Shown here piece after piece: positions 19,009 through 38,485 of a DNA stretch of 64,000 nt (within the stretch, counting starts at the first letter, position 1; every line of letters begins with the position of its first letter). Origin of the DNA: Pseudomonas sp. BN417 (GTDB lineage: Bacteria; Pseudomonadota; Gammaproteobacteria; Pseudomonadales; Pseudomonadaceae); contig NZ_SSOJ01000151.1 of assembly GCF_029871205.1 (NCBI RefSeq), positions 1 through 64,000 of the forward strand, given 5' to 3'. The position numbers were made by a program, and so were the translations under genes. The notes under the pieces are model-generated. The model had not been told where the DNA came from and ran no database searches. It saw only the letters and a program-made list of their open reading frames with translations.

Positions 19009-20892
19009 TCAGAAGGACAAGCCGACGCTGAACGCGATGAAATCGCGATCGACGCTGGTGTTGTAATCGCCGCCGAAGAAGTCGGTGTATGACAGGCTGG
19101 CGTTGTAGGTGTTGCGGTACTCGGCATCCACGCCCAGGCTGATGGCCTTGCTGCCTTCGTTGAAGCCGGGCTCAGGACCATAGCCGTCAACATCGTGGGA
19201 CCAGGCCAGGTTCGGCTTGAGCGTCACCGCCGGAATCAGGTTGGTGTATTCCCAGATCGCGCGTGCGCGATAGCCCCAGGAGGTGGTGGTGAGGAAGCCA
19301 TCGTCGTTGCAGTTCTGCGGCGTGGCGGAGCTGGTGAGGCACAGGTTGTTGTCCGGGAGCAGCTCGCCCTGGCCGAACACCGCATCGCGGCCATAGCGCA
19401 GGCCGCCTCGGCCTTCCAGATCGCCGACATGGACCATGCCGATTTCGCCGACCAGGGTCAGGCGGTCGGCGCCCATGACTTGATCGAAGAAGTGCACGGC
19501 CGTGATCTGCGCCTGAGTCACGGGTTTGCGTTGATAACCCTGCACCAGCGCATTGTTGGTCGCCTGATAAGCCCCCGAGGAGAGCAGCGGCGAGACGGCG
19601 GCGACGCCCGTGCCGGCGAGGACCTGATCGTTGCCGTTGAGTTGCAGCGGCAGGTTGGGCCGGTAGCTGATTTCCCCGGACAAGGCGGTGCCGGTCGGCA
19701 GGGTGGTGGCGAAGCTCAGGCCATAGAGGCGGATATCCTCCGGGTAAGTCACCTGATACTGCGAGGTGCCAAGGCGATAGGCGCCGATCAACTGCTGGCC
19801 AACGGCCGATCCGGCGACGCCGGCACAGACCGCAGGGTCGAGGATGCCGACGTTGGCGCAGAGCTGCGGGACGAAGGACAGGTCGGCGACGTTCGGACTG
19901 GAGATCGAACTGACGTAGGGCTGACGGCTGTGATAGTTGAGGAAGTAGGCGCCGAATTCGGTATCCAGGCTGGGCACGAACCAGCGAAGGGCGGCGCCCC
20001 ATTGGCCGCCATCGCGCGCATCGTCATCGCCAGCGCGCGGCACCTCGATGCCTTCCGCGCCCAGGCTGATGCCGAAGGGGCTAAGGGCGGCCTGGGCCAG
20101 CGGGTTGGCACTGAGATTCGGGCCGACGGTGAGGGGCTGGCAGCCATCGGCGACGAAATCGCTTTGCGAGAAGAAGGTGCCGCAGTTGTCCACCACCGTC
20201 TGCTGCCAGTCCAATTGGTAGAAGGCTTCGGCCGTCAGGTTCTCGGTCAGGTTCTGCGACAGGTAGAACATATTGACCGGGATCAGGCCTTCCTTGATCT
20301 CGGCACCGGGGCGGCGGAAGGCGGACACGTCCACCGGGTTGATGACGTTGATTCCGCCCTGGATAAAGGTGCTCTCGCCCCAACTGACCACCTGCTTGCC
20401 CAAGCGCACGATGCCGGGCAGCTCACCGATCACATAGTTGTGATAGACGTAGGCATCCAGCAGCTCGGCGCCGGAAGACTTGGCGCCTTCCTTGCGGCCG
20501 CTGTCGTCGATGTCCTTGAACAGGCGGCTCTCGTCCTTCAACTCGAAGTCGTACCAGTACTTGCCTCGCACGAACACGCCGGTCTCGCCGTACTTCAATT
20601 CGAGGTCGTGGATGCCCTTAAATATCTTCGAGAAGGTCTCCCCCTTCTTGAAGTTCAGTCGGCCGTCGTCCGTGACGCTGGCATCGCCCTTGCCGCCGTT
20701 GGTGGCGCCGATCAGCTCGGGATCGGCGCCACGCAGTGCCCAGCTGGCGCCGACGCTGAGCGAGGAGTCGAATTGCCCTTCGATCTCACCCAGGTTGAAG
20801 TTCAGGCCGAACGCTGGCGTGGCCAGGCTGCCGGCCAGCGCAGTGGCCAGCGGTAGGCGGGCGCGCCGCCAGGTAAATCGCGTGTTGCTCAT
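19009..20892 (-). CDS. DUF1302 domain outer-membrane beta-barrel protein
   Basis: The 627-residue protein has a signal peptide (about residues 1-29) and matches DUF1302, a family of predicted 20-plus-stranded outer-membrane barrels. The mature protein starts LNFNLGEIEGQFDSSLSVG, and the sequence ends in a barrel-like FSVGLSF. It forms an operon with the DUF1329 gene. These pairs are common near steroid, terpenoid and alkane catabolic genes. Here it may help hydrophobic aromatics cross the outer membrane together with FadL. Substrate is inferred only. Confidence 0.88.
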   Translation of the reverse strand: MSNTRFTWRRARLPLATALAGSLATPAFGLNFNLGEIEGQFDSSLSVGASWALRGADPELIGATNGGKGDASVTDDGRLNFKKGETFSKIFKGIHDLELKYGETGVFVRGKYWYDFELKDESRLFKDIDDSGRKEGAKSSGAELLDAYVYHNYVIGELPGIVRLGKQVVSWGESTFIQGGINVINPVDVSAFRRPGAEIKEGLIPVNMFYLSQNLTENLTAEAFYQLDWQQTVVDNCGTFFSQSDFVADGCQPLTVGPNLSANPLAQAALSPFGISLGAEGIEVPRAGDDDARDGGQWGAALRWFVPSLDTEFGAYFLNYHSRQPYVSSISSPNVADLSFVPQLCANVGILDPAVCAGVAGSAVGQQLIGAYRLGTSQYQVTYPEDIRLYGLSFATTLPTGTALSGEISYRPNLPLQLNGNDQVLAGTGVAAVSPLLSSGAYQATNNALVQGYQRKPVTQAQITAVHFFDQVMGADRLTLVGEIGMVHVGDLEGRGGLRYGRDAVFGQGELLPDNNLCLTSSATPQNCNDDGFLTTTSWGYRARAIWEYTNLIPAVTLKPNLAWSHDVDGYGPEPGFNEGSKAISLGVDAEYRNTYNASLSYTDFFGGDYNTSVDRDFIAFSVGLSF

Positions 20893-21009: not shown

Positions 21010-22953
21010 CTACTGAGTAGGGGAATGACCGAGCGTGGAGGTCGATGCGGTTGATGGCAGCCACTCGACTTGAAAGCTGTACCGCCCCAGACGAGAGGCC
21101 AAGGTTTCCTGGTTGGCGCAGCCTCGGATGCAGGCGACCAGTCCACGGCGACTGTCTTGAACGACCTCCACCGCAACGTCCGACAGCGCCAGGTGTTCGA
21201 CTTCCTGAAGGACCACCCTGACGACTTCCTGCTGCTGCAAGGCAGGCTTGAAAATCTTGCCCACGGCAGTCAGTGGCAGGGCATCGAGTAATTCGATGCG
21301 TTTGGGAACGGCGGCCCGCTCGCTGATGTTGCGATTGGCGAACTCCTGCAGTTCTTCCACAGTGCAAGCCTGCCCCTGGTGCAGTTGGACATAGGCCACA
21401 GGAACCTCGCCTGAGTAGGCGTCCGGGCTGCCCACTGCCGCGGCCATGGCGACCGCGGGATGGGCCTGCAGGGCCTCCTCGATTTGCTTGGGATCGATGT
21501 TGTGGCCGCCGCGGATGATCAGTTCCTTCTTGCGCCCGGTCAGCCAGAAGTAGCCCTGCTCGTCCTGGCGCCCCAGATCACCCGTGTTCAGCCAGCGCCG
21601 ACCGTTGATTTCGATCCAGACGCCGCGGTTATGGCTCTCCTCCAGATACCCGTCGAACAGGTTCGGACCGCTGATCGTTATCAGGCCGATCTCATCCGCG
21701 TTGGCGTCGCGCAGGTAGGCTCCGACATCATCCAGCACGACCGCACGCATATCCTGGTAGGCGATTCGTATCCCGATCGAGCCAACGTGGCGTTCGCCAT
21801 GGGGAGGATTGACCGAGGAAGCACAGGCGCCTTCCGTAAGGCCGTAGCCTTCGAGGATCTTCACCCCGGTCCGCTGCTCGAACTCGCGGAAGAGCTCGAC
21901 CGGCATCGGTGCGGCGCCACACAATGCATAGCGCAGGCTGGACAGATCGCGGCCCGACAACTCGGTCTGCAGGAGCGCGGCATAAACGGTGGGAACGGCG
22001 GAGAAGAAGTTGATGCCGAAGTGCTCCACCATCTCTCCGAATCGGGCGATCGCACCCTCGCCGCGGTAGCCTTGCGGTGTGCCGAGGATCACATGGTCGC
22101 CCTGGGTCCAGGGCATCAGACCCGTTACCAGTTGTCCGTTGACGTGGAACAGCGGCAATCCGCAGAAAATGACCTGGCTGCTGTTGCGTGGTGCCAGGTG
22201 GGCAGCCATGGCCCAGGCGTTGAACACCTCAGAACCATGAGTGCGGGTGGCGATCTTGGGCAGCCCGGTCGTGCCGCCGGTGCAGAAGAAAGAGGAACGC
22301 TCCTCGGGACGGATTTGCCGGCCGCTCTTGAGGTGTGTGCCGGGCTGCGCGTCCATCAACGCGCGCAACTCATGAATCGCGGCACCCCTGTGCAGTTCAC
22401 GTTCCTCCTCTGCCAGGGAGCGGAGGGTTTCGCCTTGAGCTTTGCCGACATAAGGCTCCATGCCGACCCAGACGATGTGGCGGACCTCCGGCAGTCGATC
22501 CAGTTGCGAGGCCAGCTTGGACCACAAGTCGCTGCCCGGCGTCGGCGCCAGGGTCACGACCACGGATGCCTTGGCGGCCTGCAGCAAGCTGGCGATCTGC
22601 CCGGCCTCCAGCAGCGGATTGATCGCCATGACGATTCCCGCCGCCTCCCCACCCCAGATGGTGAAGTGCGTCTCCGGCAGGTTGGGCAGGATGAAGGCGA
22701 TCACTTCGCCGGGCGTAATGCCCAGGTCATGGAAGGCATTCGCTGCGCGGGTGATATCCGCGAAGAGCTCGGAATAGCTCCAGTCGTGGGTTTTCCTGAA
22801 GTATGTGGCATCGGCGAAGAAGCTCAGCGCGGGCGCATCCGGGGTGCGCTCGGCGGTGCGTCTCAGTGCTTCATAAGTACTGGAAGCCAGATCACGCTCC
22901 GATAAGGGGACCAGCTCGAGCTCCTTGATGTCGTTCAGGCACTGCACGGTCAT
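21010..22953 (-). CDS. AMP-forming acyl-CoA synthetase
   Basis: The 647-residue protein is an ANL-superfamily enzyme. The phosphate-binding loop is FFCTGGTTGLPK near residue 240, the adenine motif is EGYGLTEG near residue 370, and LNTGDLGRQDEQGYFWLTGRKKELIIRGG covers the hinge near residue 460. The C-terminal catalytic Lys is in LTAVGKIFKPAL. A tail of roughly 75 residues beyond that Lys extends the usual C-terminal domain. It joins a carboxylic acid to CoA using ATP. Its start overlaps the FAH-hydrolase stop (TGATG), so translation is coupled. It may activate the acid released by ring-fission hydrolysis. Confidence 0.9.
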   Translation of the reverse strand: MTVQCLNDIKELELVPLSERDLASSTYEALRRTAERTPDAPALSFFADATYFRKTHDWSYSELFADITRAANAFHDLGITPGEVIAFILPNLPETHFTIWGGEAAGIVMAINPLLEAGQIASLLQAAKASVVVTLAPTPGSDLWSKLASQLDRLPEVRHIVWVGMEPYVGKAQGETLRSLAEEERELHRGAAIHELRALMDAQPGTHLKSGRQIRPEERSSFFCTGGTTGLPKIATRTHGSEVFNAWAMAAHLAPRNSSQVIFCGLPLFHVNGQLVTGLMPWTQGDHVILGTPQGYRGEGAIARFGEMVEHFGINFFSAVPTVYAALLQTELSGRDLSSLRYALCGAAPMPVELFREFEQRTGVKILEGYGLTEGACASSVNPPHGERHVGSIGIRIAYQDMRAVVLDDVGAYLRDANADEIGLITISGPNLFDGYLEESHNRGVWIEINGRRWLNTGDLGRQDEQGYFWLTGRKKELIIRGGHNIDPKQIEEALQAHPAVAMAAAVGSPDAYSGEVPVAYVQLHQGQACTVEELQEFANRNISERAAVPKRIELLDALPLTAVGKIFKPALQQQEVVRVVLQEVEHLALSDVAVEVVQDSRRGLVACIRGCANQETLASRLGRYSFQVEWLPSTASTSTLGHSPTQ

Positions 22954-24074
22954 CAGGCTTCCTCCACGACTCGGTTACATTGCACACCCAGGTCGATCAC
23001 GCCATCCGCGCTGCGAATGCGCGCTTCGACCACGTCGCCAGGCTTGAGGTATTGCGGCCGGCTCTCCTGGGCCTTGAGGAACATTTGCCATTTGGTGGCT
23101 TCCGGCAGCAGGGCCGCGATACGTTGTTTGGCGGGGGAGGGGATCGACAGGGCACAACCCGCCGGAGTGCCTGTGGCGATCAGGTCACCGGGGGCGAGAT
23201 CTTGCACGGAGGAGAGTTCGGTCAGGGTTTCAGCGGGGCCGTAGACCAGGTTGGCCGTGCTATCGCTCTGACGCACCTGGCCATTGACCGTCAGACGCAG
23301 TTGCAGGTCCTTCAGGTAATGCATGTCCTTGGCATCCAGCAGGCAAAGATAGGGGCCGACCGGGCCGAAGGTGCGGAAGCTCTTGCCCTTGTAGAACTGC
23401 ATCTGGGGAATCTGGATGTCGCGGGCCGAGTAGTCGTTGACGATGACGACACCGGCGATGAACTCATGCAGGTTGGCGTCGGTAACGGCGACGGCGCTGT
23501 TGATCGCGCGCTTCATCACCAGCCCAAGTTCGATCTCGTAGTCCAGGAATCGCACGTTGCGCGGCTTGATCAGGTCGCTGTCCGCCGCCACCAGGCAACT
23601 CGTCGCCTTGGTGAAAATCATGTTGTACTTCTTCGCGTCAGGGTCCATGCCCGACTCGATCATGTGCTGACGGTAGTTGGCGCCCTGGCAGACGAACTGC
23701 TGGTTACGGGACAGCGGCGACAGGAGTTTCACCTCGCCCTCATCCAACTCCGTGCCTCTCACTTGAGCGAGCTCGTCGATGCTGTTCTGGCGAATGAAGT
23801 CACCGGTGGTTTCAAAGGTACCCGGGACGACCGTGATACGGCCCCGTCGTATCACGCCCCAGTGGATACCGTTCTGATATTCAAAGCGGACTACATGTAC
23901 AGCAGACATTGAAGGCACTCCTGGAGCAGCGTCTGTTCCGCGCTCGGTGGCGCGAGGACTTTGGTGTTGTTCTGAATTTGGGCCGGCAAGGCTGTAGACC
24001 AGCGAGCCACCAGCGATCAAAGCGCCGGCTTTGAGCACATCCCGTCGGCCATACTTGGTTGAATTGCCTGACAT
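22953..24074 (-). CDS. Fumarylacetoacetate hydrolase family enzyme with Tat-like leader
   Basis: The 373-residue frame ends in an FAH domain with the metal-binding segments LDYEIELGL and VNDYSARD and the signature [10 protein letters not shown]. It is a clear paralogue of the second FAH gene at 30802-31773. The first 55 residues carry a twin-arginine-type signal (GRRDVLKAG, then a hydrophobic stretch ending SLVYSLAG), which is unusual for this family. Met56 (position 23909) aligns with the normal start and has its own AGGAG site, so two products may exist: an exported one and a cytoplasmic one. FAH enzymes hydrolyse C-C bonds in ring-fission products. It is followed directly by the acyl-CoA synthetase. 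Confidence 0.85.
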   Translation of the reverse strand: MSGNSTKYGRRDVLKAGALIAGGSLVYSLAGPNSEQHQSPRATERGTDAAPGVPSMSAVHVVRFEYQNGIHWGVIRRGRITVVPGTFETTGDFIRQNSIDELAQVRGTELDEGEVKLLSPLSRNQQFVCQGANYRQHMIESGMDPDAKKYNMIFTKATSCLVAADSDLIKPRNVRFLDYEIELGLVMKRAINSAVAVTDANLHEFIAGVVIVNDYSARDIQIPQMQFYKGKSFRTFGPVGPYLCLLDAKDMHYLKDLQLRLTVNGQVRQSDSTANLVYGPAETLTELSSVQDLAPGDLIATGTPAGCALSIPSPAKQRIAALLPEATKWQMFLKAQESRPQYLKPGDVVEARIRSADGVIDLGVQCNRVVEEA

Positions 24075-24084: not shown

Positions 24085-24231
24085 CTACCCGAACATCCGC
24101 ATGAGGGTTATCAGTTTGCGCAGCGACAGGTCATCGAGGTCAGGACGCTCGAAGATCAGGTGAGCAAGACGTTGAGCCTTGACCGTGGGGGCGGAATGAC
24201 GCGCAGGTTGTTGTGTCGTCGGCCTGGGCAT
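24085..24231 (-). other. 48-codon frame, possible remnant of a VOC dioxygenase
   Basis: The frame runs from MPRPTTQQPA to a TAG eleven bases before the FAH start. The stretch VKAQRLAHLIFERPDL resembles the first strand of VOC-fold dioxygenases, including the beginning of the extradiol enzyme at 29638-30777. After it the sequence turns to LRKLITLMRMFG and stops. In the rightward operon a VOC gene also sits directly before an FAH gene, so this may be a deletion scar of the same order. It could also be a true small protein. Confidence 0.3.
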
Positions 24232-24336
24232 TTCAGTTCTGCTGCTCATTGTTGTTCTTGTCCGGTTTTTTGGAGCAAAGCCGATCCCGCACCCCTGAAA
24301 TGCCGGGGGTGTTGTTGGATTGGCCCAGTTACGAAA

Positions 24337-24951
24337 TCAGTCGAGCAGGGGGAGTGCCGGCAACTCCTTTGTCGCCAACTCACGAGCCTCCTCTGGCGGC
24401 ACACCCAACGCTCGGAGGACGAACTCAGCCGTGTCAGTACCTGATTCGCGCCACGTCTTGTGCCCTTCCAGCACCAGGAAAATAGAGCCCAGGACGCTGC
24501 TCGAAATCAGTGTCATGACTGAGAGCAATTGCTCCTGCTGAAACCTGTATCGCCCACTGGAGAGTCCACTCAGGAGGTCTGTAGTCGCTTGGCTGGCGAA
24601 CATTTCGCGCAGCGACGCATTGCTCATGGCGAACTTATGGATGAATGCCCCCCACTGGGAGTCCTCGTGAGCGCGACGAATGAAAAATCGGATGCCGTTG
24701 GCAAGGCGTTGAGCCGGGTCGGACAGGGTGTCGAAGCTCTTCTTGACACGTTCATGCATCTCCCCTGCGAGGTGGCCGGCGACCGTCTCGAACAGGCTCT
24801 CCATGCTCTCAACGTTGCTGTAGATGGTTCCGCGCGCGACTCCTGCCTCTTGCGCAAGGTCGAGGATGTTCACTTGGGAGGTGCCTTTTGCAGCGAACAG
24901 GCGAAAGGCAGCCTGATGAATGCGGCGCTGTGTCGGATTCAGGGATTCCAC
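24337..24951 (-). CDS. TetR family regulator (paralogue 2)
   Basis: The 204-residue protein has an N-terminal TetR helix-turn-helix (LAQEAGVARGTIYSNVES) and an effector domain, with strong similarity to the TetR at 14858-15463. An operator with the shared core GAACACGCGTGTTC overlaps its promoter. A second operator lies about 150 bases away in a divergent promoter facing the molybdoenzyme operon. It is therefore the best candidate for controlling both the leftward hydrolase/synthetase genes, by read-through, and the rightward operon. The ligand is unknown. It might be a ring-cleavage product or CoA ester. Confidence 0.9.
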   Translation of the reverse strand: MESLNPTQRRIHQAAFRLFAAKGTSQVNILDLAQEAGVARGTIYSNVESMESLFETVAGHLAGEMHERVKKSFDTLSDPAQRLANGIRFFIRRAHEDSQWGAFIHKFAMSNASLREMFASQATTDLLSGLSSGRYRFQQEQLLSVMTLISSSVLGSIFLVLEGHKTWRESGTDTAEFVLRALGVPPEEARELATKELPALPLLD

Positions 24952-24980: not shown

Positions 24981-25009
24981 ATTGAACACGCGTGTTCTGT
25001 TGTCGTCAA
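24981..25009 (-). promoter_or_regulatory. TetR operator-promoter 2
   Basis: On the minus strand TTGACG (plus 25004-25009) and TTCAAT (plus 24981-24986) are 17 bases apart. The core GAACACGCGTGTTC (24984-24997) overlaps the spacer and -10 box, 33 bases from the TetR start. The layout is the same as operator-promoter 1. Confidence 0.83.
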
Positions 25010-25124: not shown

Positions 25125-25153
25125 TTGACTTAATTGAACACGCGTGTTCATCT
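25125..25153 (+). promoter_or_regulatory. TetR operator-promoter 3, facing the molybdoenzyme operon
   Basis: TTGACT (25125-25130) is followed after 16-17 bases by TTCATC/TCATCT. The 16-base palindrome TGAACACGCGTGTTCA (25135-25150) fills the spacer. It reads rightward into the old-yellow-enzyme remnant and the molybdoenzyme genes. A long leader of about 620 bases would separate it from the molybdoenzyme start. Confidence 0.75.
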
Positions 25154-25558
25154 CTTGGTTCGAGATGCCTATTTTCTCGAGTTCGCAGAAAGAATCGGGA
25201 TGTCGCGCACATGCCGTTGATGGTCACCGGCGGCGTGCGCCGAAAGGAGGTCGCGGAGCGAGTGGTGGGCGGTTCGGTGGCGGTGGTTGGGCTCGCCACT
25301 GCGCTGGCTATCGAACCGACCCTGCCCAGCCAGTGGAAGGAGGGGCAAGACGCCGAAGTGGAGCCCATCGTCGTCCGCTGGAAGAACAGGGCGTTGGCAT
25401 CGCTTGCTGTCGCATCGGTGGTCAAGAAGCAACTCGGGTTACTGAGCCAGGGGAAACGAGCAAGGCCAAGGACTTCGCCGCTCATGGCGTTGATCGGCAA
25501 CCAGCTGAAGTCCCGTCGTCAGGCGAAACGCTACAGACAATGGATTGGCCAAGCCTAG
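25149..25558 (+). pseudogene. Old yellow enzyme family (NADH:flavin oxidoreductase), C-terminal remnant
   Basis: Directly after the operator, one frame reads RDAYFLEFAERIGMSRT. The next frame continues as MPLMVTGGVRRKEVAE, VVGLATALAIEPTLPSQW and then a basic tail to the stop at 25558. Together they match the last quarter of OYE-type flavin oxidoreductases, which have the pattern EAYFLEFA...PLMVTGGF. The N-terminal three quarters are missing and a frameshift lies near 25205. It is not expected to be active. It indicates that a flavin reductase once headed this operon or was fused to the promoter by deletion. Confidence 0.7.
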
Positions 25559-25776: not shown

Positions 25777-28776
25777 ATGAAAAAAATACTTCTAAAAACA
25801 ATATTGTTCGCTTTACCAAAGGTACTTGGCTTCACTGCCCGCAAACATCCGCAATTTCACGCGCGGCTCAAGCAGAAGAACTGCACCGTCTATATCGGCC
25901 TTCAGGACGGCAGCATCGGCCGCTTCCTCGAAATCCGCGGCGGTAAAGTGTTCTCGCGCGTTGGCAAGGCGGCAGAGGCGGATGTCAGCATGCTGTTCAA
26001 GGACCTGCCAACGGCCCTGAAATTCCTCTCGCCCAATCCGGACATGGGCGAGATCGTCCACGCCGCCAAGAACTTCAAGGTCGTCGCCAAAGGGCCGGAC
26101 CCCCTGGTGGTGTGGTTCACCCAGACGCTCAACCTCAGCCAGACGGTCGGGTTGGAGATGGGCCTGCCGATGCGCGACGGCACCCGGCGCTACACCACCT
26201 GCACCAACGGCGGCCCGCTGTTCATTTATGTGAAGGGCGGGCGCATCCAGCGCGTCACGCCGCTGGAGCTGGATGAGAAGGATGCGCCGAGCTGGGAGTT
26301 GCAGGCGCGCGGCAAGACCTTCCGGCCCAAACGCCGCGCTCTGGTAGCGCCCCATGCCCTGTCGCTCAAATCCCTGGTTTATTCGGACAAGCGCATTCTG
26401 CAACCGATGAAGCGGGTCGATTTCGACCCGGACGGCGAGCGCAACCCGCATAACCGCGGCAAGTCGGGCTATGTGCCCATCAGCTGGGACGAAGCGCTGA
26501 GCATCGTCGCCAAGGAAATCAACCGGCAAAAGCGCGTCCACGGGCCGGGCTCGATCACCTTCCCAATGTCATCCCACCACCAGTGGGGCAATGTCGGCTA
26601 TTACCTCAGCTCGCTGATGCGTTTCGCCAACCTGATCGGTTTCACCCGCGTTGCCGCCAACCCTGACAGCTGGGAGGGCTGGTACTGGGGCGCCATGCAC
26701 CATTTCGGCAATTCCATGCGTGTCGGCGTGCCGGCCGGCTATGGCGCCGTCGAGGACTGCCTGAAGGAAGCCGAGATGATGGTCTTCTGGTCCTGCGATC
26801 CGGAGAGCACCAACGGCGCCTATGCCGGCTTCGAGGGCACGACCCGCCGGCTTTGGGCCAAGGAACTGGGCATCGAGTTCGTCCATATCGATCCGCATAA
26901 CAACCCCACCGCGCAATTGCTCGGCGGGCGCTGGATTCCGATCCGCCCGCAGACCGATGCCGCCCTGGCCACGGCCATCATGTACGTGTGGGCTGTCGAA
27001 GGCTTGTACGACGCGGATTACGTTGCGACCCGCACCACCGGCTTCGACGAATGGAAGCGCTACCTGCTGGGCGAGGCCGACGGCATCGCCAAAACCCCAG
27101 AGTGGCAGGAAGGCGAAACCGGTGTACCGGCCAAGGACGTGCGCGCCCTGGCCCGCAAGTGGGGTAACCGCAAAGTCTATCTGGCGACCGGCATGACCGG
27201 GGCCGGATTCGGCGGCGCCGGTCGCGGCGCGACCGGGCAGCAGTGGGCGCGCTGCATGATCATGATGATGGCCATGCAGGGCTGGGGAAAACCGGGCGTC
27301 AATTTCGGTTGCCTGCAGATCGGCTCGCCGGTGGACCATCATTTCTACTTCCCCGGCTATGCCGATGGCGGGATATCCGGCGAACTGATGTGGACCGGCA
27401 ACGCCGTAAACAACTATCAGCGCATGCCCCACATCCTGACCATGAACCCGGTCAAGCAGCTGGTGCCGCGGCAGCAATTGCCCGACGCCATCATCAACGG
27501 CCATGCTACCGGCTATCTGTGGGACGGCATGTCGCAGGAGGCGCAGTTCGCCCCCTTCACCTATCCGATGGCGGGCTATTCGCCCATCCACATGATCTAC
27601 CGCTACGGCGGTTCGTCGTTCAGCACCGTGACGAAATCCGGCCGCTGGGTCGAGGCCTACCGTCACGACAGCATCGAGTTCGTCGTGAACCAGTCCATCT
27701 GGATGGAGGGCGAGGCCCAGTTCGCCGACATCATTCTGCCGGCCTGCACCCAGCTCGAGCGCTGGGACATCGGCGAATGGTGCAATTCCGGCGGTTACGC
27801 CCACCACGGCTACACCCTGGTCAATCACCGCCTGGTGACGCTGCAGCACAAATGCATCGAACCGCTCGGCGAGTCTCGTTCGGACTACGACATTTTCGCG
27901 GCCATCCTCGAGCGCCTGGGCTTGGGCGGGGTGTTCACCGAAGGTTGCAGCGAGCTCGATTGGGTCAAGCGGGTGTTCGACTCATCCGACCTGCCGGATC
28001 ACATCTCCTGGCGCGAGTTCTGCCGCAAGGGCTATTACGTCGTGCCGCCGGAAAGGCCCGAACTGCGTCCGCCGGTCGACATGCGCTGGTTCGCCGAAGG
28101 CCGTCCCAAGGACCTGCCGGAGCCGTTTCCGCTGCCGTCGCAGTGGGCCGAAGAGTTTGGCAAGGGTTTGCAGACGCCCAGCGGCAAGCTGGAGTTCGTT
28201 CCCGAAACTCTCAAACGCCACACCAAGGACAATCCCGAGCGGCCGGCGCTCAACCGCTATATCCCGTCCTGGGAAGGCCTGGGAACGACCGAGCTGGTCG
28301 GCAAGTATCCGCTGCAGATGATCGCGACCCATTCGCGCTACAGCTTCCACACCTCCAGCGACGGCAAGAACGGCGTGACCAGTCGGGTGGCAGACCATCG
28401 CGCCCGAATCGACGGCCACGATTTCTGGCTGCTGCGAATCAGCCCTGCCGATGCAGAGGCGCGCGGCATTGCGCAGCGCGACTTGGTCAAGATCTACAAC
28501 GACCGCGGGGCGGTGATTTGTGCCGCTGACGTGTCGGCCCTGGTGGTGCCGGGGGTGGTCAAGTCCTACGAGGCCAGCGCCGAGTTCCAAATGGTGAACG
28601 TTGCCGGCGAGACCGTCGAAATCGGCGGCTGCCTGAACATCCTCACCCCGGATCGGCCGCAAACGAAGGGGACCAGCAGCATGAGCCCGAACTCATGCCT
28701 GGTTCAGATCGAAAAATGGCAAGGCGCCGACGCGTTCAAGCGCAGCCGTGTCGAAGCAGGAGTCGCCCATGAGTAA
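25777..28776 (+). CDS. Molybdopterin hydroxytransferase-like large subunit with SCP2-like N-terminus
   Basis: The 999-residue protein is a DMSO-reductase-family molybdoenzyme closest in pattern to pyrogallol-phloroglucinol transhydroxylase. Shared segments include SSHHQWGNVGY (His267/His268), NPDSWEGW (Asp297, Ser298 as probable Mo ligand) and NILTPDRP near the C-terminus. As in that family it has no N-terminal iron-sulfur motif. Residues 1-130 are extra and resemble an SCP2/sterol-carrier domain, suggesting binding of a lipid-like substrate. There is no Tat signal, so it should act in the cytoplasm. No strong ribosome site precedes the ATG. Its stop overlaps the start of the iron-sulfur subunit by eight bases. 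Confidence 0.88.
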   Translation: MKKILLKTILFALPKVLGFTARKHPQFHARLKQKNCTVYIGLQDGSIGRFLEIRGGKVFSRVGKAAEADVSMLFKDLPTALKFLSPNPDMGEIVHAAKNFKVVAKGPDPLVVWFTQTLNLSQTVGLEMGLPMRDGTRRYTTCTNGGPLFIYVKGGRIQRVTPLELDEKDAPSWELQARGKTFRPKRRALVAPHALSLKSLVYSDKRILQPMKRVDFDPDGERNPHNRGKSGYVPISWDEALSIVAKEINRQKRVHGPGSITFPMSSHHQWGNVGYYLSSLMRFANLIGFTRVAANPDSWEGWYWGAMHHFGNSMRVGVPAGYGAVEDCLKEAEMMVFWSCDPESTNGAYAGFEGTTRRLWAKELGIEFVHIDPHNNPTAQLLGGRWIPIRPQTDAALATAIMYVWAVEGLYDADYVATRTTGFDEWKRYLLGEADGIAKTPEWQEGETGVPAKDVRALARKWGNRKVYLATGMTGAGFGGAGRGATGQQWARCMIMMMAMQGWGKPGVNFGCLQIGSPVDHHFYFPGYADGGISGELMWTGNAVNNYQRMPHILTMNPVKQLVPRQQLPDAIINGHATGYLWDGMSQEAQFAPFTYPMAGYSPIHMIYRYGGSSFSTVTKSGRWVEAYRHDSIEFVVNQSIWMEGEAQFADIILPACTQLERWDIGEWCNSGGYAHHGYTLVNHRLVTLQHKCIEPLGESRSDYDIFAAILERLGLGGVFTEGCSELDWVKRVFDSSDLPDHISWREFCRKGYYVVPPERPELRPPVDMRWFAEGRPKDLPEPFPLPSQWAEEFGKGLQTPSGKLEFVPETLKRHTKDNPERPALNRYIPSWEGLGTTELVGKYPLQMIATHSRYSFHTSSDGKNGVTSRVADHRARIDGHDFWLLRISPADAEARGIAQRDLVKIYNDRGAVICAADVSALVVPGVVKSYEASAEFQMVNVAGETVEIGGCLNILTPDRPQTKGTSSMSPNSCLVQIEKWQGADAFKRSRVEAGVAHE

Positions 28777-29641
28777 GTGGAATCTGATCATCAACGTGGG
28801 GCGTTGCGAGAACTGCTACAACTGCGTGCTCGCCGAGCGGGACGAGCACGTTGGCAACGACTATCCGGGCTATGCGGCCCCGGCCTCCCTCGCCGACGAG
28901 GCACCGATCCGCATCCTGCGGCGCGTGCAGGGGGCGGCGCCGATGGTCGAGACGACCTACCTGCCGGTGATGTGCAACCACTGCGACGATGCGCCGTGCA
29001 TGAAGGTCGGCGGCGACGCGATCAGCAAGCGTGCTGACGGCATCGTCGTGATCGATCCGGTGAAGGCCAAGGGGCGCAAGGACATCGTCCGCTCCTGTCC
29101 CTACAGGGCCATCGTCTGGAACGAGGAACAGCAGCTGCCGCAGACCTGGATCTTCGACGCTCATCTGCTCGACGACGACTGGAAAGGCCCGCGTTGCCAG
29201 CAGGTGTGCCCAACGGACGTGTTCGAGGCGGTGAAGCTGGACGACGTGGCAATGCAGCAGAAGGCACGCCAGGAAGGCTTGCAAGTTCTGCTGCCCAAAT
29301 TGAAGGCCAAACCCAGAGTCTATTACCGGGGCCTGGAGCGCTGGGACACCTGCTTCATCGGCGGCAGCCTCAGCGCCAGCGTTGACGGCGTGGTCGATTG
29401 CGTCGCCGGTGCCGAAGTCACGCTTCTGCAGAACGGGAAACCCATCGTGGTCACCCACAGCGATGCCTTTGGCGACTTCCGCTTTGGTGGCCTGGCCAAG
29501 AAAAGCGGCGGCTATCGCATTGAAGTCCGCCACGGCCTGGGCGAGGCGCAGCGCGACTGCGACATCGACGAAAGCCTCTATCTCGGCGAGATCCGGCTGG
29601 TGAGCAGCCATCAGGAATGCATTGAGGAGCAAGCCGTATGA
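28769..29641 (+). CDS. Transhydroxylase-like small subunit with reduced iron-sulfur motifs
   Basis: The 290-residue protein pairs with the large subunit upstream. It has ferredoxin-type Cys groups (CENCYNC, CNHCDDAPC, CPYR and CQQVC), and the C-terminal part (about residues 195-285) resembles the transthyretin/Cna-B-like barrel of transhydroxylase beta subunits. As I recall the family, twelve Cys hold three 4Fe-4S clusters. Here the fourth Cys of the first motif is replaced (NCVLAERDEH) and a CxxC before the conserved AHLLDD is replaced by TWIFD. So one or two clusters at most are likely. The start at 28769 has an AGGAG site. Confidence 0.85.
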   Translation: MSKWNLIINVGRCENCYNCVLAERDEHVGNDYPGYAAPASLADEAPIRILRRVQGAAPMVETTYLPVMCNHCDDAPCMKVGGDAISKRADGIVVIDPVKAKGRKDIVRSCPYRAIVWNEEQQLPQTWIFDAHLLDDDWKGPRCQQVCPTDVFEAVKLDDVAMQQKARQEGLQVLLPKLKAKPRVYYRGLERWDTCFIGGSLSASVDGVVDCVAGAEVTLLQNGKPIVVTHSDAFGDFRFGGLAKKSGGYRIEVRHGLGEAQRDCDIDESLYLGEIRLVSSHQECIEEQAV

Positions 29642-30777
29642 ATCACACCCAGGAACTGAGCGTGCCGCCGGAATATCCGGAAAGCGCGGCGCCCGCCCAC
29701 GTCAAGAAGCTGGTCCGGCCGAAGGCCTGGCAGAAGGCTACGCAGCTGGCCTTCCTTCGTTTCGAAAAGAAGGATCTCGTCGAGGCTGAGCGCTTCTGGA
29801 ACGATTTCGGCCTGGTGACGGCGTCGCGCACCGCGGAGCAACTGGTACTGCGCGGTGCCGGGACGGCGCCGGCCATCCTGGTCGCTACCAAGGCCGAGAC
29901 CTCGCGCTTCGTCGGCTCGGTCTTCGTGGTTCCGGCTGACACCGATTTCGCGCGGCTGGAACGCGAAAGCAATGCCAGGCCGCTGTCGCCCGAGCGCATT
30001 CCTGGCGGCGGGCGCGGCGTCACACTCAATGACCCGGACGGCACTGAACTGTGGTTGATCACCGACTGGGATTCGGTGCCGGCGTTGCCGACCCGGCCGC
30101 CGATCCATCGGGATATGAACGTACTAGGCGAGATCCAGCGGGTGAATCGTACGGTTCGTTCGCCCATCGAGCCGGCGCTGGTCGGTCGCCTGGGGCACGT
30201 TGTCTATCAGACCAGCAACTTCGAGGTGATGTCCGAGTGGTACATGCGCCACCTCGGCCTCATTCCGACGGACGTTCAGTACCTGGAGGACGGCTCCCCG
30301 CTGGTCACTTTCTTCCGCCTGGACCTGGGCGACCAGCCGGCGGATCACCATACCTTCGTCATGGCGAGCGCTCTCCAGCCGCGTTACGAACACAGCGCCT
30401 GGGAAGTGATCGACCTCGACGCCTTGGGACAGGGGCAGCAAGTCATGCATGCCCGTGGCCACAAGCACTTCTGGGGCATCGGCCGGCACCTGCTCGGCAG
30501 CCAGCTCTTCGACTACTGGAAAGATGCGGACGGCTTCGACTTCGAGCACTACACCGACGGCGACGTATTCACCGCCGACCACGAGACGCGCTACGTGCCG
30601 TTCTCGACGGGCAGCATCTGGGCCTGGGGGGACGACGCGCCCAAGAAGATCTTCCCGGCCAAGTCTCTGGGCCTCGTCTGGCGGGCATTGAAGCTTATCC
30701 GCCAGGGGCGCCTGACCCTGGCCAAGCTACGCATCATCGGCAAGACGCTCGATACCCCAGCGCGTCCCTGGCTCTGA
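29638..30777 (+). CDS. VOC family extradiol ring-cleavage dioxygenase
   Basis: The 379-residue protein contains two VOC halves (about residues 33-145 and 183-320). A type I extradiol facial triad is visible: His187 in RLGHVVY, His252 in YEHSAWEV and Glu303 in DFEHYTDG. The spacings of 65 and 51 residues match classic catechol dioxygenases such as BphC. It should use Fe(II) and O2 to open a catecholic or trihydroxylated ring beside the hydroxyl groups. The start overlaps the end of the small-subunit gene by four bases (ATGA), so it is translationally coupled. An FAH hydrolase follows. Confidence 0.88.
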   Translation: MNHTQELSVPPEYPESAAPAHVKKLVRPKAWQKATQLAFLRFEKKDLVEAERFWNDFGLVTASRTAEQLVLRGAGTAPAILVATKAETSRFVGSVFVVPADTDFARLERESNARPLSPERIPGGGRGVTLNDPDGTELWLITDWDSVPALPTRPPIHRDMNVLGEIQRVNRTVRSPIEPALVGRLGHVVYQTSNFEVMSEWYMRHLGLIPTDVQYLEDGSPLVTFFRLDLGDQPADHHTFVMASALQPRYEHSAWEVIDLDALGQGQQVMHARGHKHFWGIGRHLLGSQLFDYWKDADGFDFEHYTDGDVFTADHETRYVPFSTGSIWAWGDDAPKKIFPAKSLGLVWRALKLIRQGRLTLAKLRIIGKTLDTPARPWL

Positions 30778-30801
30778 ATTCGACACACAAGGACTTGATC
30801 C

Positions 30802-31773
30802 ATGGCTATCGCCCTTATCCGCTTCATCCCTGCCAAGGCACCTGCCGACACCGATCCCCGCTGGGGTGTCGTCTTCGGCGAAAAGGTTGCACCGCTGGAC
30901 GGCAGCTACCCGACCACCGCCGACCTCATCCAGAACGGGCGCGAGGCCGCTCGTCAGCTCACGCCGGCCCAGGCAACGCTCGAACTGGGCAGCGTCCGCG
31001 TCCTGCCGCCGGTCACCTCGAACCAGCAATTCATCTGCCAGGGCGTCAATTACGAGAGCCATGTGCGGGAGTCTGGCCTTGATCCGAAGAACTTCCCGTT
31101 CAATACGATCTTCACCAAAGCGCCCTCTTGCATCAGCGGCCCGTACGACGACGTAGTGCGTCCCTCCCATGTGAAACTGCTGGACTACGAGATTGAACTG
31201 GGGCTGGTCCTCGGGCGCGATCTGGTTCCCGGTGAGGTTGTCACGCCGGACAAGCTTCACGAGGTCCTGGCCGGCGTGACCATCGTCAACGACGTCTCGG
31301 CCCGCGATGTCCAACTGCCTCAGGGCCAGTTCTACAAGGGCAAGAGCTACCAGACTTTTGGTCCGGTCGGCCCGGTGCTGCTCCTGCTCGAACCCCTGGA
31401 GTGGCAGCGCTGGCGCGAGCTGAAGATGACCCTGACGGTCAACGGAATCGCCCGGCAGCAAGCCTACTGCGGCGAAATGCTGTTCAAGCCGCATCAGACG
31501 CTGACTGAACTGGCGTCGCTGCATGGCATGCACGCCGGTGACCTGGTGGCGACCGGGACACCGGCCGGCTGCGCCGCAAAGGCACCCGGCAAGCTGGTCA
31601 TGTTCATTCTCAAGCATTTCATGTCCGATGCCGGGAAATGGAAGGCCTTCATCGCCAAGGCCAAGAAGAATCCGCTCTACCTGCAACCCAGCGATGTCAT
31701 GGCTCTGAGCATTAGTACCGACGACGGCGCGCTGGATCTCGGCCAGCAGCGCACGCGGGTGGTGTCGGCATGA
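30802..31773 (+). CDS. Fumarylacetoacetate hydrolase family enzyme (paralogue 2)
   Basis: The 323-residue protein has the FAH-domain metal ligand segments [11 protein letters not shown] and [10 protein letters not shown] and the ATGTPAGCA signature. It is clearly related to the leftward paralogue at 22953-24074 but lacks the Tat-like leader. In this operon it follows an extradiol dioxygenase, so it probably hydrolyses the ring-fission product (a 2-hydroxymuconate-type ketone) to a carboxylic acid and a smaller dienoate. An AAGGAC site precedes the ATG. A long insert before the C-terminus ([18 protein letters not shown]) resembles the paralogue and may shape a hydrophobic pocket. Confidence 0.88.
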
Positions 31774-31825
31774 CAGTGGCCGAACGGCTGCTTTGCCTGC
31801 GCCCGGCCGCCTCCAATCCAGTGTG

Positions 31826-32818
31826 ATGGATAGCATTCTGCAGGATGGCTTCGGTCGCAGCATCGATTACCTTCGCATGTCGGTGACTGATCGCTGCGAC
31901 TTCCGCTGTGTTTACTGCATGGCCGAGGAGATGACTTTCCTGCCGCGTCAGCAGGTACTCGGCCTGGAGGAGTTGTATCGCTTGGCGGCGCTGTTCGTGC
32001 GTAACGGGGTGAAAAAGATCCGCCTCACCGGCGGCGAGCCGCTGGTGCGCAAGGGCATCGTCCAGCTGTGCGCGCAGATCGCCGCCTTGCCGGGGCTGCG
32101 CGAACTGGTGATGACCAGCAACGGCTCGCAGCTGGTCAAGCTGGCGCAGCCGCTGGTCGATGCCGGGGTCCAGCGCCTCAATATCAGCCTGGACAGCCTT
32201 GATGCACAACGCTTTCGGGCGATTACCCGTACCGGCGACTTGGCCCAGGTGCTGGCCGGCATCGACGCGGCGAGCGCCGCCGGCTTTGCCCGGATCAAGC
32301 TCAATGCCGTGGTGATGCAGGGGCGCAATGCCGACGAGGTGCTCGACCTGGTCGAATATGCGGTGAACCGCGGTCTGGACATCAGCTTTATCGAGGAGAT
32401 GCCGCTGGGCGAGGTGGGCCGCTCGCGTGGCGAAAGCTACTGCTCCAGCGACTGGGTGCGCGAGCGTATCGCCGAGCGCTACAGCCTGCTCGATAGTGCC
32501 GAGCAGAGTGGCGGGCCGGCGCGCTATGTGCGCGTCAGGGATTTCCCTGCAAGCCGTATCGGCTTTATCTCACCGCACAGCCACAACTTCTGCGGCACCT
32601 GCAACCGCGTGCGCCTGACCGTAGAAGGGCGCCTGTTGCTGTGCCTCGGGCACGAGAACTCCATCGACCTGCGCGCCCTGCTGCGCCGCCATCCGCAAAG
32701 CGATGCGCCCTTGTTGCAGGCGCTCCACGCCGGCCTGGCGCGCAAGCCGTTGCGCCACGAATTCAGCGTTGGCGGCGAGGTGAAGGTGCTACGCTTCATG
32801 AACGCCAGCGGTGGTTGA
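31826..32818 (+). CDS. moaA: GTP 3',8-cyclase (molybdenum cofactor biosynthesis)
   Basis: The 330-residue protein has the radical-SAM motif CDFRCVYC, the C-terminal second cluster motif CGTCNRVRL plus a later Cys, and the essential C-terminal Gly-Gly tail (NASGG). It makes the first pyranopterin precursor of the molybdenum cofactor. It sits downstream of a molybdoenzyme operon and not with other moa/moe genes, so it probably boosts cofactor supply for that enzyme when the operon is induced. The ATG at 31826 is preferred because the family N-terminus begins near [18 protein letters not shown]. Confidence 0.93.
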
Positions 32819-36173: not shown

Positions 36174-36827
36174 TCAAGACGAAGCGGGTAACGGCAGGCC
36201 GGCGATCTTCCTGGCCCTGGCGGGGGTGGTGCCCAGAGCCTTGAGGACCATCTCTGCGACCTGCACATCGTGCCCCGTCACCGCGCGACCCTCGACGACC
36301 GAACGCATCGCGCCGGTTGTGCAAGACACCACGATGTCCATGGCGATGCCTTCGTCATTGAACGTGAAGGCACCCTCGCGCCGGCCTTCACGCAGGTCGT
36401 CAAGTACATGGGTGGCCAGTCGCGAGCGAATGGCCTGGTCGAAATGGATAATGCGCAGCAGTGCATTGGCCCATTGGTGGTCGTCGGCGGCGCGGCGGAT
36501 GAACATGCGCACCCCTATCGAAAGCCGCTGGGCACCGCTTTTTACGTTGGTGCTGAGGGCGGTGATAGCGTCGGAGAACTCGGTTGCCAGGGTAATTCCC
36601 ACCGCCTCCAGCACTTCGTCGCGGGTGCGGAAGTAGTTGTAGATGGTGCCGTTGGATACCTCTGCTTCGGCGGCAACTTCGAGCAGGGCAATTTCGCCCA
36701 CCTCCTTGCGTGCGATAAGGCGCAGCGCCGCATCCACCAGGCTGCGACGCGTGCGCTCGCGCTTCTTGTGCCCTCGCGTGAGAGGCTGGTTCTCGTCCAG
36801 GTCTGATGGTGGAGTGGGGATGGGCAT
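36174..36827 (-). CDS. TetR family regulator of the monooxygenase operon
   Basis: The 217-residue protein has a Pro-rich N-terminal arm, a TetR helix-turn-helix (LLEVAAEAEVSNGTIYNYFRTRDE) and an effector domain. The start at 36827 lies two bases after the stop of the FAD monooxygenase, so the two are co-transcribed and the regulator probably controls its own operon. It is the intact version of the remnant at 33395-33612. It does not closely resemble the two TetR paralogues at 14858 and 24337. A palindrome upstream of the monooxygenase is the probable operator. Confidence 0.9.
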   Translation of the reverse strand: MPIPTPPSDLDENQPLTRGHKKRERTRRSLVDAALRLIARKEVGEIALLEVAAEAEVSNGTIYNYFRTRDEVLEAVGITLATEFSDAITALSTNVKSGAQRLSIGVRMFIRRAADDHQWANALLRIIHFDQAIRSRLATHVLDDLREGRREGAFTFNDEGIAMDIVVSCTTGAMRSVVEGRAVTGHDVQVAEMVLKALGTTPARARKIAGLPLPASS

Positions 36828-36829
36828 AC

Positions 36830-38485
36830 TCAGGCTCGCATTCGAAGGGGCTCGCCGATGGTAAAGGAAACACTGTCGGCGGTGGAGTCGCCGCTGGCCA
36901 TCAGGTCCATGCAGGTTTGAACCAGCTTCGCGGCCTGTTTGCTGGGGGCGTGGTGCATGACATGGCGGTCGGGGCGTACCACGACAAGCGTGCCCTTGGG
37001 CGCCAGCGGCAGGATGGCATGGTTGAGATCTTCGATGAATGCGTAGTTTCCACCAGGGCGCTGGCCGCATGCTCCGATCTGCAGGAAGTTACCCCCTAGC
37101 TTGACCCAGGATGCGACCTGGGCAGCGGATAGCAGCGAGAGTGGATCGACACCGAATCCAACCAGGGTGAGATGGTCACCCAGAGCCTCGTCGCTCAAGT
37201 GTACCTGCTGTTTGGCGCTGCGCACCCAGGCTTGAGGAAACAGGCCGCCGCGAACCAGCTTGTCGCCGCGGTGATAGGGCGCAAAAAGGCCGTGCCTGAA
37301 GATGTTTTTCGGCTTGATCTCCAGCTCCTCGAAGTACTTTCGGGTAAATGGCGTCAAGGTAAGCGTGCGCATCAGCCCATGAATCAGGAAGGCTGCCAGT
37401 TTGTTCCTGGGCATCACCAAGCGGCCCATCAGCTTGGCCATGTCGATCATGGCTTTCGCGTGGGGGCGGCGCTCCTCGTCATAGGTGTCCAGCACCGAGG
37501 GCGAGGCTTGACCGCGCAGGACCCAGGCGAGTTTCCAGGCGAGGTTGGCAACATCCCGAAGCCCGGCGACGAGCCCTTGGCCGACGAAGGGAGGCGTGAT
37601 GTGGGCGGCATCCCCCACGAGGAAGATTCGTCCTTTGCTGAATCTGTTGCAGCAGCGTGCGTGGAATCGATACACGGCCTTGCGCTCGATCTGCAGCTCC
37701 CGCGAATCGACCCACGGGGCGACCAGCCTGGCGATGTTTTCCGGGCATTCCATCTGCTCGCGTGTTTCGCCTGGGTGCAGCATGAACTCCCAGCGCTCCC
37801 GGCCGCCCGGGGCGGGCATATGCGGAGCGGGGCGCTCGGGGTCGCAGAGGAACTCGACATGATCGATGGCCGATTGGCGCCGGTTGCCTGCGTCGACGAT
37901 CAGCCAGACTTCGGCATAGGTCTCGCCTTCGAAGTCCTGGCCGATCAGGCTTCTGACCCTGGAGCTGGCACCATCGGCACCTACCAGGTATCGCGCGCGA
38001 ACGAAGTGTCTCTTGCCTTTCTGGTCCTTAACCGAAGCGACCACGCAATCCGGCTCTTCGGACAGGCTCTCGAGTTCGAGCCCGCCCATGCTGGTCACTG
38101 ATTCGAGCTGTGAGACCCGGTCGCGCATCGCATGCTCGAGGTCGGGTTGGTAAAAGGTCACCAGCTTGGGATGGCCGTCGATGCAACCCGCCGTATTGGC
38201 CCGCGCGAACTGCCCGAGCACCGGAGAGTGCATGCGTACCTCGGGAATCACGATCTTCTCGAAAGCGTCTTCGGCCAGTCCGGCAAGCTGCAGGATGCGG
38301 AGCGCTTCGTTATCCAGGGCAATGGCTCGGGGCATCAGCAGGACCTCATGGGTCTTGTCCAGAACCAGTGTGCTTACGCCATAGCGACCCAACAGTGCGG
38401 CGAGTGTCGCCCCTGCGGGGCCGTAGCCCACTACCAGTACATCGACTACGTCCGGCGGCAGTGCGGAGCATTTCTTGTTGTTCAT
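36830..38485 (-). CDS. FAD-dependent aromatic hydroxylase (MhpA/PheA-like)
   Basis: The 551-residue protein is a class A flavin monooxygenase: the FAD-binding VVGYGPAGATLAALL is near residue 18, the DG motif is GADGASSRVRSL near residue 180, and the GD motif is FLVGDAAHITPPFVGQG near residue 290. A C-terminal thioredoxin-like domain of the phenol-hydroxylase type follows. It probably uses NAD(P)H and O2 to add an ortho hydroxyl to a phenol, making a catechol for the extradiol dioxygenase nearby. The start at 38485 (MNNKKCSALPP) is preferred over the upstream ATG at 38530. Confidence 0.9.
   Translation of the reverse strand: MNNKKCSALPPDVVDVLVVGYGPAGATLAALLGRYGVSTLVLDKTHEVLLMPRAIALDNEALRILQLAGLAEDAFEKIVIPEVRMHSPVLGQFARANTAGCIDGHPKLVTFYQPDLEHAMRDRVSQLESVTSMGGLELESLSEEPDCVVASVKDQKGKRHFVRARYLVGADGASSRVRSLIGQDFEGETYAEVWLIVDAGNRRQSAIDHVEFLCDPERPAPHMPAPGGRERWEFMLHPGETREQMECPENIARLVAPWVDSRELQIERKAVYRFHARCCNRFSKGRIFLVGDAAHITPPFVGQGLVAGLRDVANLAWKLAWVLRGQASPSVLDTYDEERRPHAKAMIDMAKLMGRLVMPRNKLAAFLIHGLMRTLTLTPFTRKYFEELEIKPKNIFRHGLFAPYHRGDKLVRGGLFPQAWVRSAKQQVHLSDEALGDHLTLVGFGVDPLSLLSAAQVASWVKLGGNFLQIGACGQRPGGNYAFIEDLNHAILPLAPKGTLVVVRPDRHVMHHAPSKQAAKLVQTCMDLMASGDSTADSVSFTIGEPLRMRA

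Follow-up and report, generated by a model that had tools for sequence, protein, structure and literature searches.

Aerobic degradation of aromatic compounds is usually drawn with oxygenases for both hydroxylation and ring opening; in the meta-cleavage pathways that start with an MhpA-type flavin monooxygenase, the ring is hydroxylated and opened beside the hydroxyl, and the product is hydrolysed. Molybdenum (Mo) hydroxylation of phenol rings has been described from anaerobes. Darley 2007 is reportedly the key paper on Aromatoleum (Azoarcus) anaerobium, and we take LuFRes1 to be its strain; Azoarcus anaerobius is A. anaerobium in present NCBI naming. The closest described systems to the one studied here are the resorcinol hydroxylase RhLS of A. 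anaerobium and the transhydroxylase AthLS of Pelobacter acidigallici (4v4c). According to the literature, RhL converts resorcinol to hydroxyhydroquinone in anaerobic respiration, and RhL and the transhydroxylase PgtL both use a serine on Mo (PMC10100899). We analysed a stretch of 64,000 nucleotides of Pseudomonas sp. BN417 (contig NZ_SSOJ01000151.1, positions 1 to 64,000; the window), in which five genes on the + strand at 25777–32818 encode the large and small subunits of a molybdoenzyme, a VOC dioxygenase, a fumarylacetoacetate-hydrolase-family (FAH) hydrolase and MoaA. Our principal interpretation, with a probability of about 0.6, is that this RhLS-type molybdoenzyme takes part in the aerobic breakdown, by meta cleavage, of a hydrophobic compound that contains a resorcinol ring; on our best reading, by analogy with RhL, water-derived hydroxylation at Mo would replace the monooxygenase. 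What is observed are the gene families, the key residues, the gene order and its conservation.

All five genes had been named by an earlier note on this DNA, and all of them are present at its coordinates:

25777–28776, + strand: RhL-type molybdopterin large subunit, 999 amino acids (N-terminal extension 1–137, then an AthL-like catalytic part)
28769–29641, + strand: RhS-type Fe-S small subunit (203 bits to AthS, 4v4c_B)
29638–30777, + strand: VOC1, predicted type I extradiol ring-cleavage dioxygenase (Pfam Glyoxalase, E 2.4e-4, barely above its cut-off)
30802–31773, + strand: FAH2, FAH-family C-C hydrolase (PF01557 FAA_hydrolase, E 1.1e-47)
31793–32818, + strand: MoaA, GTP 3',8-cyclase of molybdenum cofactor synthesis, an additional copy (TIGR02666, 371.9 bits against a cut-off of 284)

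The intergenic gaps are -8, -4, 24 and 19 bases, counting the small subunit from ATG 28769, so that a single transcript is likely for the five genes. This start is preferred by the alignment over GTG 28748 (which would give 28748–29641); MoaA starts at TTG 31793 or ATG 31826. The Pfam matches of the two molybdoenzyme subunits are AhtL-like_1st (E 1.2e-23), Molybdopterin (E 5.9e-26) and Fer4_11 (E 1.2e-16). Solved relatives of FAH2 include HpcE-type decarboxylase/isomerase, diketo-deoxyrhamnonate hydrolase and acylpyruvase entries. For protein P0006, PHROGs gave no match.

Among solved structures, the large subunit matches AthL (4v4c_A) with 910 bits, dimethyl sulfoxide (DMSO) reductase with 236 and thiosulfate reductase with 73. 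It thus groups with AthL and not with an unrelated branch, and a nitrate-, polysulfide- or formate-type molybdoenzyme is ruled out by these scores. The description 'transhydroxylase-like' in the earlier note holds in so far as AthL is the best solved relative; RhL, however, is nearer. The gene of A. anaerobium LuFRes1 (locus L062 of our set) is 64–65% identical to the window large subunit over the full length, N-terminal extension included, and is the sole RhL-type gene of that strain (the next match there reaches 62 bits), whereas AthL shares 419 of 841 aligned residues (50%; alignment with AthL and 28 rows). The extension of about 137 residues is present in all 28 aligned RhL-type rows and absent from AthL, the match to which starts at query residue 138. 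Looking at the catalytic part, the window residues H267, D297, S298, W299, Y528 and Y674 align with AthL H144, D174, S175, W176, Y404 and Y560, and S298, which stands at the Mo-ligand position (AthL S175), is invariant in 28/28 rows. AthL R153 is replaced by Tyr or Trp in 28/28 rows (Y276 in the window) and AthL W354 by Phe in 22 of the 28 (F478 in the window). The list of AthL active-site residues, their roles (those of R153 and W354 included) and the number of the Mo-ligand Ser are taken from general background. In the small subunit, three cysteines of AthS (Cys23 and the CTMC pair) are missing in 24 of 24 RhS-type rows, the window and A. anaerobium among them; following the usual pattern of ferredoxin-like subunits, one [4Fe-4S] cluster would be lost, which suggests that RhS-type subunits have one Fe-S cluster fewer than AthS and a different electron path.

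By sequence, the window molybdoenzyme belongs with resorcinol hydroxylase, its reaction and substrate being predicted. It had been proposed to move or add a hydroxyl group: since the nearest described relative is RhL, adding is favoured, also by the N-terminal extension and the fewer cysteines, and moving is disfavoured, so that net hydroxylation is judged likelier than hydroxyl transfer. The known context of such enzymes is also wider than the anaerobic phloroglucinol fermentation that had been cited, since RhL is known from anaerobic respiration with resorcinol. Concerning the N-terminal extension, SCP2 was matched in Pfam by 3 of 22 members (best E 0.022), the window's own extension giving no match, and hhalign against SCP2 gave a probability of 28, where the SCP2 alignment was rough and contained one or more wrongly chosen frames. 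For the large subunit the structure model is poor (mean predicted local distance difference test, pLDDT, 64.2; predicted template modelling score 0.60), so its Foldseek match to 4v4c_A adds little and its domain arrangement is left unused. Of the eight closest plasmid-borne relatives, four are named 'molybdopterin-dependent oxidoreductase' and four are without a listed gene.

The triad His187/His252/Glu303 of VOC1 had been read exactly, and it is invariant, together with the second-shell residues H238, H277, H284 and Y293, in 25 of 25 aligned homologues. The structure model (pLDDT 84.9) is closest to the solved folds 3b59 (Z 32.9), catechol 2,3-dioxygenase 1mpy (Z 31.1) and homoprotocatechuate dioxygenase 1f1r (Z 30.4), and its matches to type I extradiol dioxygenases span 268–286 residues (top ten rows). 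Judged from the residues and the model, VOC1 is a type I extradiol dioxygenase with a 2-His-1-Glu iron site in a two-module VOC fold, and ring cleavage is its predicted reaction. It scores far under the NCBIfam cut-offs for named dioxygenase families, so that the substrate is not given by similarity. The sole other VOC1 match in its own genome is weak (25 bits).

Of 267 stretches confirmed in the search for relatives of the large subunit, the best 80 were used, with an identity of at least 58%; neighbourhoods were counted in 70 of these 80 loci (>13 kb) or in the 60 whose flanks extend for 9 kb or more to either side (fully flanked). Within about 10 kb, 52 of the fully flanked loci have a VOC gene, 53 an FAH gene and 51 both; a CoA ligase is found in 41, and the three together in 40. 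The large subunit, VOC and FAH thus travel together, and the proposed link of a transhydroxylase-like molybdoenzyme to O2-dependent ring cleavage is a conserved one. The nine loci without the VOC and FAH pair are L046, L058, L062, L063 (VOC only), L065, L067, L070, L082 and L083. RhS is on the RhL strand in 64/64 loci where it was called. The commonest order, found in 15 of 70 loci, is TetR followed by VOC-FAH-ligase-OmpW-RhL-RhS; the rhizobial order is RhL-RhS-TetR-ligase-two small VOC genes-FAH-FadL (exact in 5/70). A Gemmobacter locus contains a BphC-like VOC, FAH and a beta-keto acid cleavage enzyme; the main VOC type is absent there and from a rhizobial locus, and other VOC genes stand beside FAH in both.

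The tree comprises AthL, the window and 37 of the 80 loci. Every row with VOC falls into a single clade of 28 (Shimodaira–Hasegawa-like approximate likelihood ratio support, SH-aLRT, 98), in which VOC is found in 28/28 rows, counting L057 and the other VOC types, and FAH in 27 of them (not in L063). The ten RhL rows outside the clade have no VOC by these profiles, three of them with short flanks; A. anaerobium (L062), L058 and L065 sit together there. VOC labels were placed on the tree manually, following a single VOC cluster: L057 is labelled as lacking VOC though one was found there, and L013, L018, L031, L034 and L055, labelled likewise, carry other VOC types. The flanks of L077–L080 and L084 are short, so the lack of VOC there is not a full test. 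The large subunit is present in 4 of 18 genomes of the genus, its own included, and PF21423 exceeded the cut-off in 1 of 398 phylum-wide genomes (its own; one further match lies below the cut-off), so that the family is patchy.

The earlier note omitted the divergently oriented part of the cluster (FAH1, CoA ligase, DUF1302, DUF1329), the intervening TetR gene and the remains of two deleted genes. These features are listed here with the FadL gene and the palindromes:

15503–15520, no strand: palindrome TTGAACACGCGTGTTCAA, candidate operator upstream of a second TetR_C_40 regulator (pattern match)
16025–17344, - strand: FadL/TodX-type outer membrane transporter (PF03349, E 4.4e-116)
17635–18993, - strand: DUF1329 family protein (Pfam, E 2e-159)
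19009–20892, - strand: DUF1302 family protein (Pfam, E 4.4e-176)
21010–22953, - strand: AMP-forming acyl/aryl-CoA ligase (PF00501, PF13193)
22953–24074, - strand: FAH1, second FAH-family hydrolase (PF01557, E 2.1e-47; Tat-like N-terminus by eye)
24085–24249, - strand: VOC2 remnant, 54 amino acids in frame, without the iron site (second extradiol dioxygenase, catalytic part deleted)
24337–24951, - strand: TetR_C_40 regulator between the divergent operons (PF21306, E 2.7e-18)
24982–24999, no strand: palindrome TTGAACACGCGTGTTCTG, candidate TetR operator (pattern match)
25134–25151, no strand: palindrome TTGAACACGCGTGTTCAT, candidate TetR operator (pattern match)
25154–25558, + strand: C-terminal remnant of an OYE-type NADH:flavin oxidoreductase, about 134 residues (73% match to the intact 489-amino-acid gene of L006)

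FadL/TodX and OmpW proteins have a known association with hydrophobic solutes. OmpW-type genes are found in 29 loci, FadL in 9, DUF1329 in 10 and DUF1302 in 11, together in 50 of the 70 loci, the families differing by lineage (one or two representatives per kind were checked in Pfam); the window FadL homologue adjoins the cluster in L068 and L073. These outer-membrane and related proteins and the CoA ligase fit a resorcinol ring with a long side chain, since that side chain would come off as a fatty acid upon meta cleavage and hydrolysis. Natural candidates for the substrate are the known plant compounds of alkylresorcinol type, the cluster being tied to no particular one; that the substrate is a long-chain alkylresorcinol-like plant lipid is a tentative proposal, to which we give somewhat less than even odds. 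The best solved relatives of the ligase include fatty-acyl-, feruloyl-, oxalyl- and coumaroyl-CoA synthetases. The N-terminus of FAH1 has a Tat-like RRDVLKAG (by eye); export would be odd for an FAH hydrolase, and the homologues seen in Burkholderiales are shorter.

In the proposed pathway, FadL, OmpW or the DUF1302/DUF1329 proteins would aid uptake of the compound. RhLS, with serine-ligated Mo and two pyranopterins, would then put a water-derived hydroxyl on the resorcinol ring, giving a trihydroxybenzene with adjacent hydroxyls, while two electrons would pass to an acceptor and NADH and O2 would be spared. The extradiol dioxygenase would cleave the ring with O2 next to a hydroxyl, an FAH-family hydrolase would split the resulting keto acid, and the CoA ligase would activate the released carboxylic acid (a fatty acid if the side chain is alkyl) for beta-oxidation. 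In Pseudomonas, the extra MoaA may supply Mo cofactor; MoaA relatives of 67%, 59%, 36% and 26% identity are found elsewhere in the host genome, and the additional copy suggests that this lineage needs Mo cofactor. The host genome has seven COX1 matches above the cut-off, on six contigs and some of them partial, and no narG match above the cut-off, which fits the aerobic host that had been assumed. A broader idea, towards which we are more doubtful than inclined, is that an O2-sparing route for the catabolism of resorcinolic plant lipids is widespread among rhizobia, Paraburkholderia, Pseudomonas and related bacteria; in it, a Mo enzyme shared with anaerobic aromatic metabolism and bearing a lipid-handling N-terminal domain would hydroxylate with water and gain electrons, and O2 would serve for ring opening only.

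Concerning regulation, the palindrome GAACACGCGTGTTC has three matches in the window (up to three mismatches) against 0.03 expected from shuffles, two of them between the divergent operons beside the TetR_C_40 gene; a TetR_C_40 repressor on this candidate operator may control both operons. The palindrome core is found in two copies in L006 and L073, in one copy in L007 and L008, also in L091–L093, and in a changed form in L068. A second TetR_C_40 gene (14858–15463), with the same palindrome upstream, lies beside the FadL gene (16025–17344), which is possibly co-regulated with the RhLS cluster. An MhpA-type FAD monooxygenase with its own TetR_C_40 regulator is located at 36830–38530 and 36174–37070 of the window; its homologue (56%) lies inside the RhLS cluster of L024, and it may share the RhLS regulon. 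At 12917–13679, a tRNA-Ser is followed by an integrase-like reading frame (13116–13679, by eye), and an island may carry or adjoin the cluster.

A number of points weigh against the aerobic meta-cleavage pathway. Its reactions and the order in which they occur are inferred, as are the substrate class and the regulation, and we know of no assayed enzyme from the dioxygenase-linked clade. A Mo hydroxylase with Fe-S clusters is unexpected in an organism that uses O2, and no electron acceptor for RhLS was identified in our analysis. Concerning the neighbourhood, the VOC and FAH profiles were derived from the same neighbourhoods and there is no random-stretch baseline, so that the linkage counts are only descriptive; a chance neighbourhood is judged unlikely at 51 of 60 fully flanked loci, read without that baseline. 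The Ensifer locus L046 (83% over 852 residues, large subunit broken off; not on the tree) has flanks without VOC, FAH and ligase and speaks against a strict VOC/FAH linkage in rhizobia, and L063 lacks FAH inside the dioxygenase-linked clade. The CoA ligase is missing in 19 of the 60 fully flanked loci, so the ligase step is not universal, and in 20 of 70 loci no cluster of FadL, OmpW, DUF1302 or DUF1329 type was found; the DUF1302 and DUF1329 families have no known function, and their link with hydrophobic substrates is taken from general background. MoaA, which had been counted as an operon member, does adjoin the other genes in the window, but it is a local addition, its cluster c50 adjoining RhLS in no more than 3 of 70 loci. 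The palindrome, as pattern GAACANNNNTGTTC, was not found in L011 or in the nine non-Pseudomonas loci scanned. Finally, VOC2 and most of the OYE gene are lost in the window, and the pathway may no longer run in this strain.

The alternative that survives best, though we hold it to be unlikely, keeps the same enzymes and gives them a small polar phenol (resorcinol, orcinol, a resorcylate or a flavonoid-derived ring), the membrane proteins and the CoA ligase being incidental or serving another compound. The described relative RhL does act on plain resorcinol, the CoA ligase and the FadL, OmpW or DUF genes are absent from some loci, and the ligase is about equally similar to feruloyl-, coumaroyl-, oxalyl- and fatty-acyl-CoA synthetases. 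However, OmpW is on the RhL strand in 29/29 loci and in most of them stands between the ligase and RhL, other lineages repeatedly have FadL- or DUF1302/1329-type genes, and plain resorcinol would yield no side-chain acid for activation.

The state of the window copy raises a second alternative. Compared with L006, whose large subunit is 98% identical to that of the window, about 924 bases of VOC2 are missing (junction overlap of 2 bases) and about 989 bases of the OYE gene (junction overlap of 5 bases; the intact gene is PF00724), from which VOC2 and the OYE gene are lost by separate deletions and the window copy is partly decayed. VOC2 is full length (362-amino-acid match) in 8/8 other Pseudomonas loci compared, and a long OYE match is found in 6 of these 8, with a fragment only in L008 and no match in L068; among the eight, L006 and L091 look like one genome, and so do L007 and L093. 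The VOC1/FAH2 pair is common to the window and L006, L007, L008 and L011 (VOC1 94–98%), L009 and L010 (85%) and L012 (57%), and is not in L068 and L073, while the pair conserved with Burkholderiales is VOC2/FAH1 (VOC2 63–68%, FAH1 66–70% identical to the FAH gene of the Burkholderiales clusters). The earlier note had placed a dioxygenase and an FAH gene next to the molybdoenzyme; VOC1 and FAH2 do stand beside RhLS, but they are one of two such pairs in several Pseudomonas, and the other pair has lost its dioxygenase here. A third type of extradiol dioxygenase, mostly of about 304 amino acids and 32–38% identical to VOC1 and VOC2, lies directly upstream of RhL in L007–L010, L030, L039, L040 and L068 and is absent from the window. 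The two deletions, of a gene kept in all eight other Pseudomonas loci and of most of a gene with a long match in six, are what would support a cluster that is decaying in this strain and no longer forms a working pathway. We consider this rather improbable: RhL, RhS, VOC1, FAH1, FAH2, the ligase and MoaA are all full-length open reading frames, and the OYE loss is not special, as L008 and L068 both keep RhLS. L009 and L012 hold VOC1/FAH2-type pairs with RhLS and the ligase while VOC2 is absent, so the window cluster may still work.

It is less probable still that the cluster serves low or alternating O2, with RhLS activating the ring when O2 is scarce, the MhpA-type monooxygenase (36830–38530) doing so when it is plentiful, and both sharing the dioxygenase. 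By profile, an MhpA-like gene is found in 11 of 60 fully flanked loci (several of the rhizobial ones being only about 30% identical), in the L024 cluster it stands between TetR and VOC, and the MhpA-like proteins of the window and L024 both contain FAD_binding_3. In the other 49 loci no such gene is nearby, so that either RhLS alone suffices there or the monooxygenase is elsewhere. Very unlikely is the use of RhLS as a transhydroxylase (the idea of hydroxyl transfer in the earlier note) or as a reductive, dehydroxylating enzyme that remodels polyphenols before ring fission: the catalytic residues common to AthL and the window and the 910-bit AthL match favour it, but the enzyme is nearer to RhL, with an RhL-type N-terminal extension, RhS-type cysteines and loss of AthL R153, and RhL is listed as a net hydroxylase.

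We therefore keep the aerobic meta-cleavage pathway with RhLS as its probable hydroxylase. The conserved combination of known enzyme families is real in the sequences compared, and it is undescribed as far as the open-licence literature shows: among the matches listed there (titles and abstracts; subscription literature lies mostly outside), no description of a molybdoenzyme together with an extradiol dioxygenase was found, in agreement with the earlier note, which knew of no such pathway. If the reading is true, aerobic bacteria of soil and roots would have a third layout, a conserved cluster in which Mo hydroxylation is mixed with O2 ring opening. How rhizosphere bacteria consume resorcinol-type plant compounds could then be approached directly through genetics, and the trait could be predicted from genomes; the cluster also offers testable partners for a molybdoenzyme subfamily that is hardly named in public annotation.

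Compared with the known systems, the window enzyme is most like A. anaerobium RhLS, with which it shares the full-length large subunit (64–65%), the N-terminal extension, the same reduced set of small-subunit cysteines and the Ser at the Mo-ligand position. The neighbours of RhLS that were scanned in A. anaerobium are a thiamine pyrophosphate (TPP)-dependent E1-type dehydrogenase, parts of an ATP-binding cassette transporter and a glutathione S-transferase-like protein, and the described pathway is anaerobic; VOC or FAH were not found nearby there, whereas the window has a dioxygenase, FAH, CoA ligase and FadL/DUF1302/DUF1329 in an aerobic host. The E1-type dehydrogenase cluster (c53) is found in 3 of 70 loci (L058, L062 and L065), and none is among the window genes scanned with Pfam. 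P. acidigallici AthLS has a catalytic part that is 50% identical, and its H144, D174, S175, W176, Y404 and Y560 are kept in the window; it differs in that AthL is without the extension, that its R153 is Tyr or Trp in the 28 RhL-type rows and that AthS has three extra cysteines. The type I extradiol dioxygenases (catechol 2,3-dioxygenase, HpaD, BphC) share with VOC1 the two-module VOC fold, the full triad and the second-shell residues, but the solved members among the matches listed are only 14–20% identical to it and its substrate is not one that the NCBIfam models name. The aerobic meta-cleavage pathways of the MhpA type follow the same sequence of hydroxylation, ring opening and hydrolysis as is proposed here, and they differ in the first step, which in the window would be carried out, by analogy with RhL, by a molybdoenzyme that uses water.

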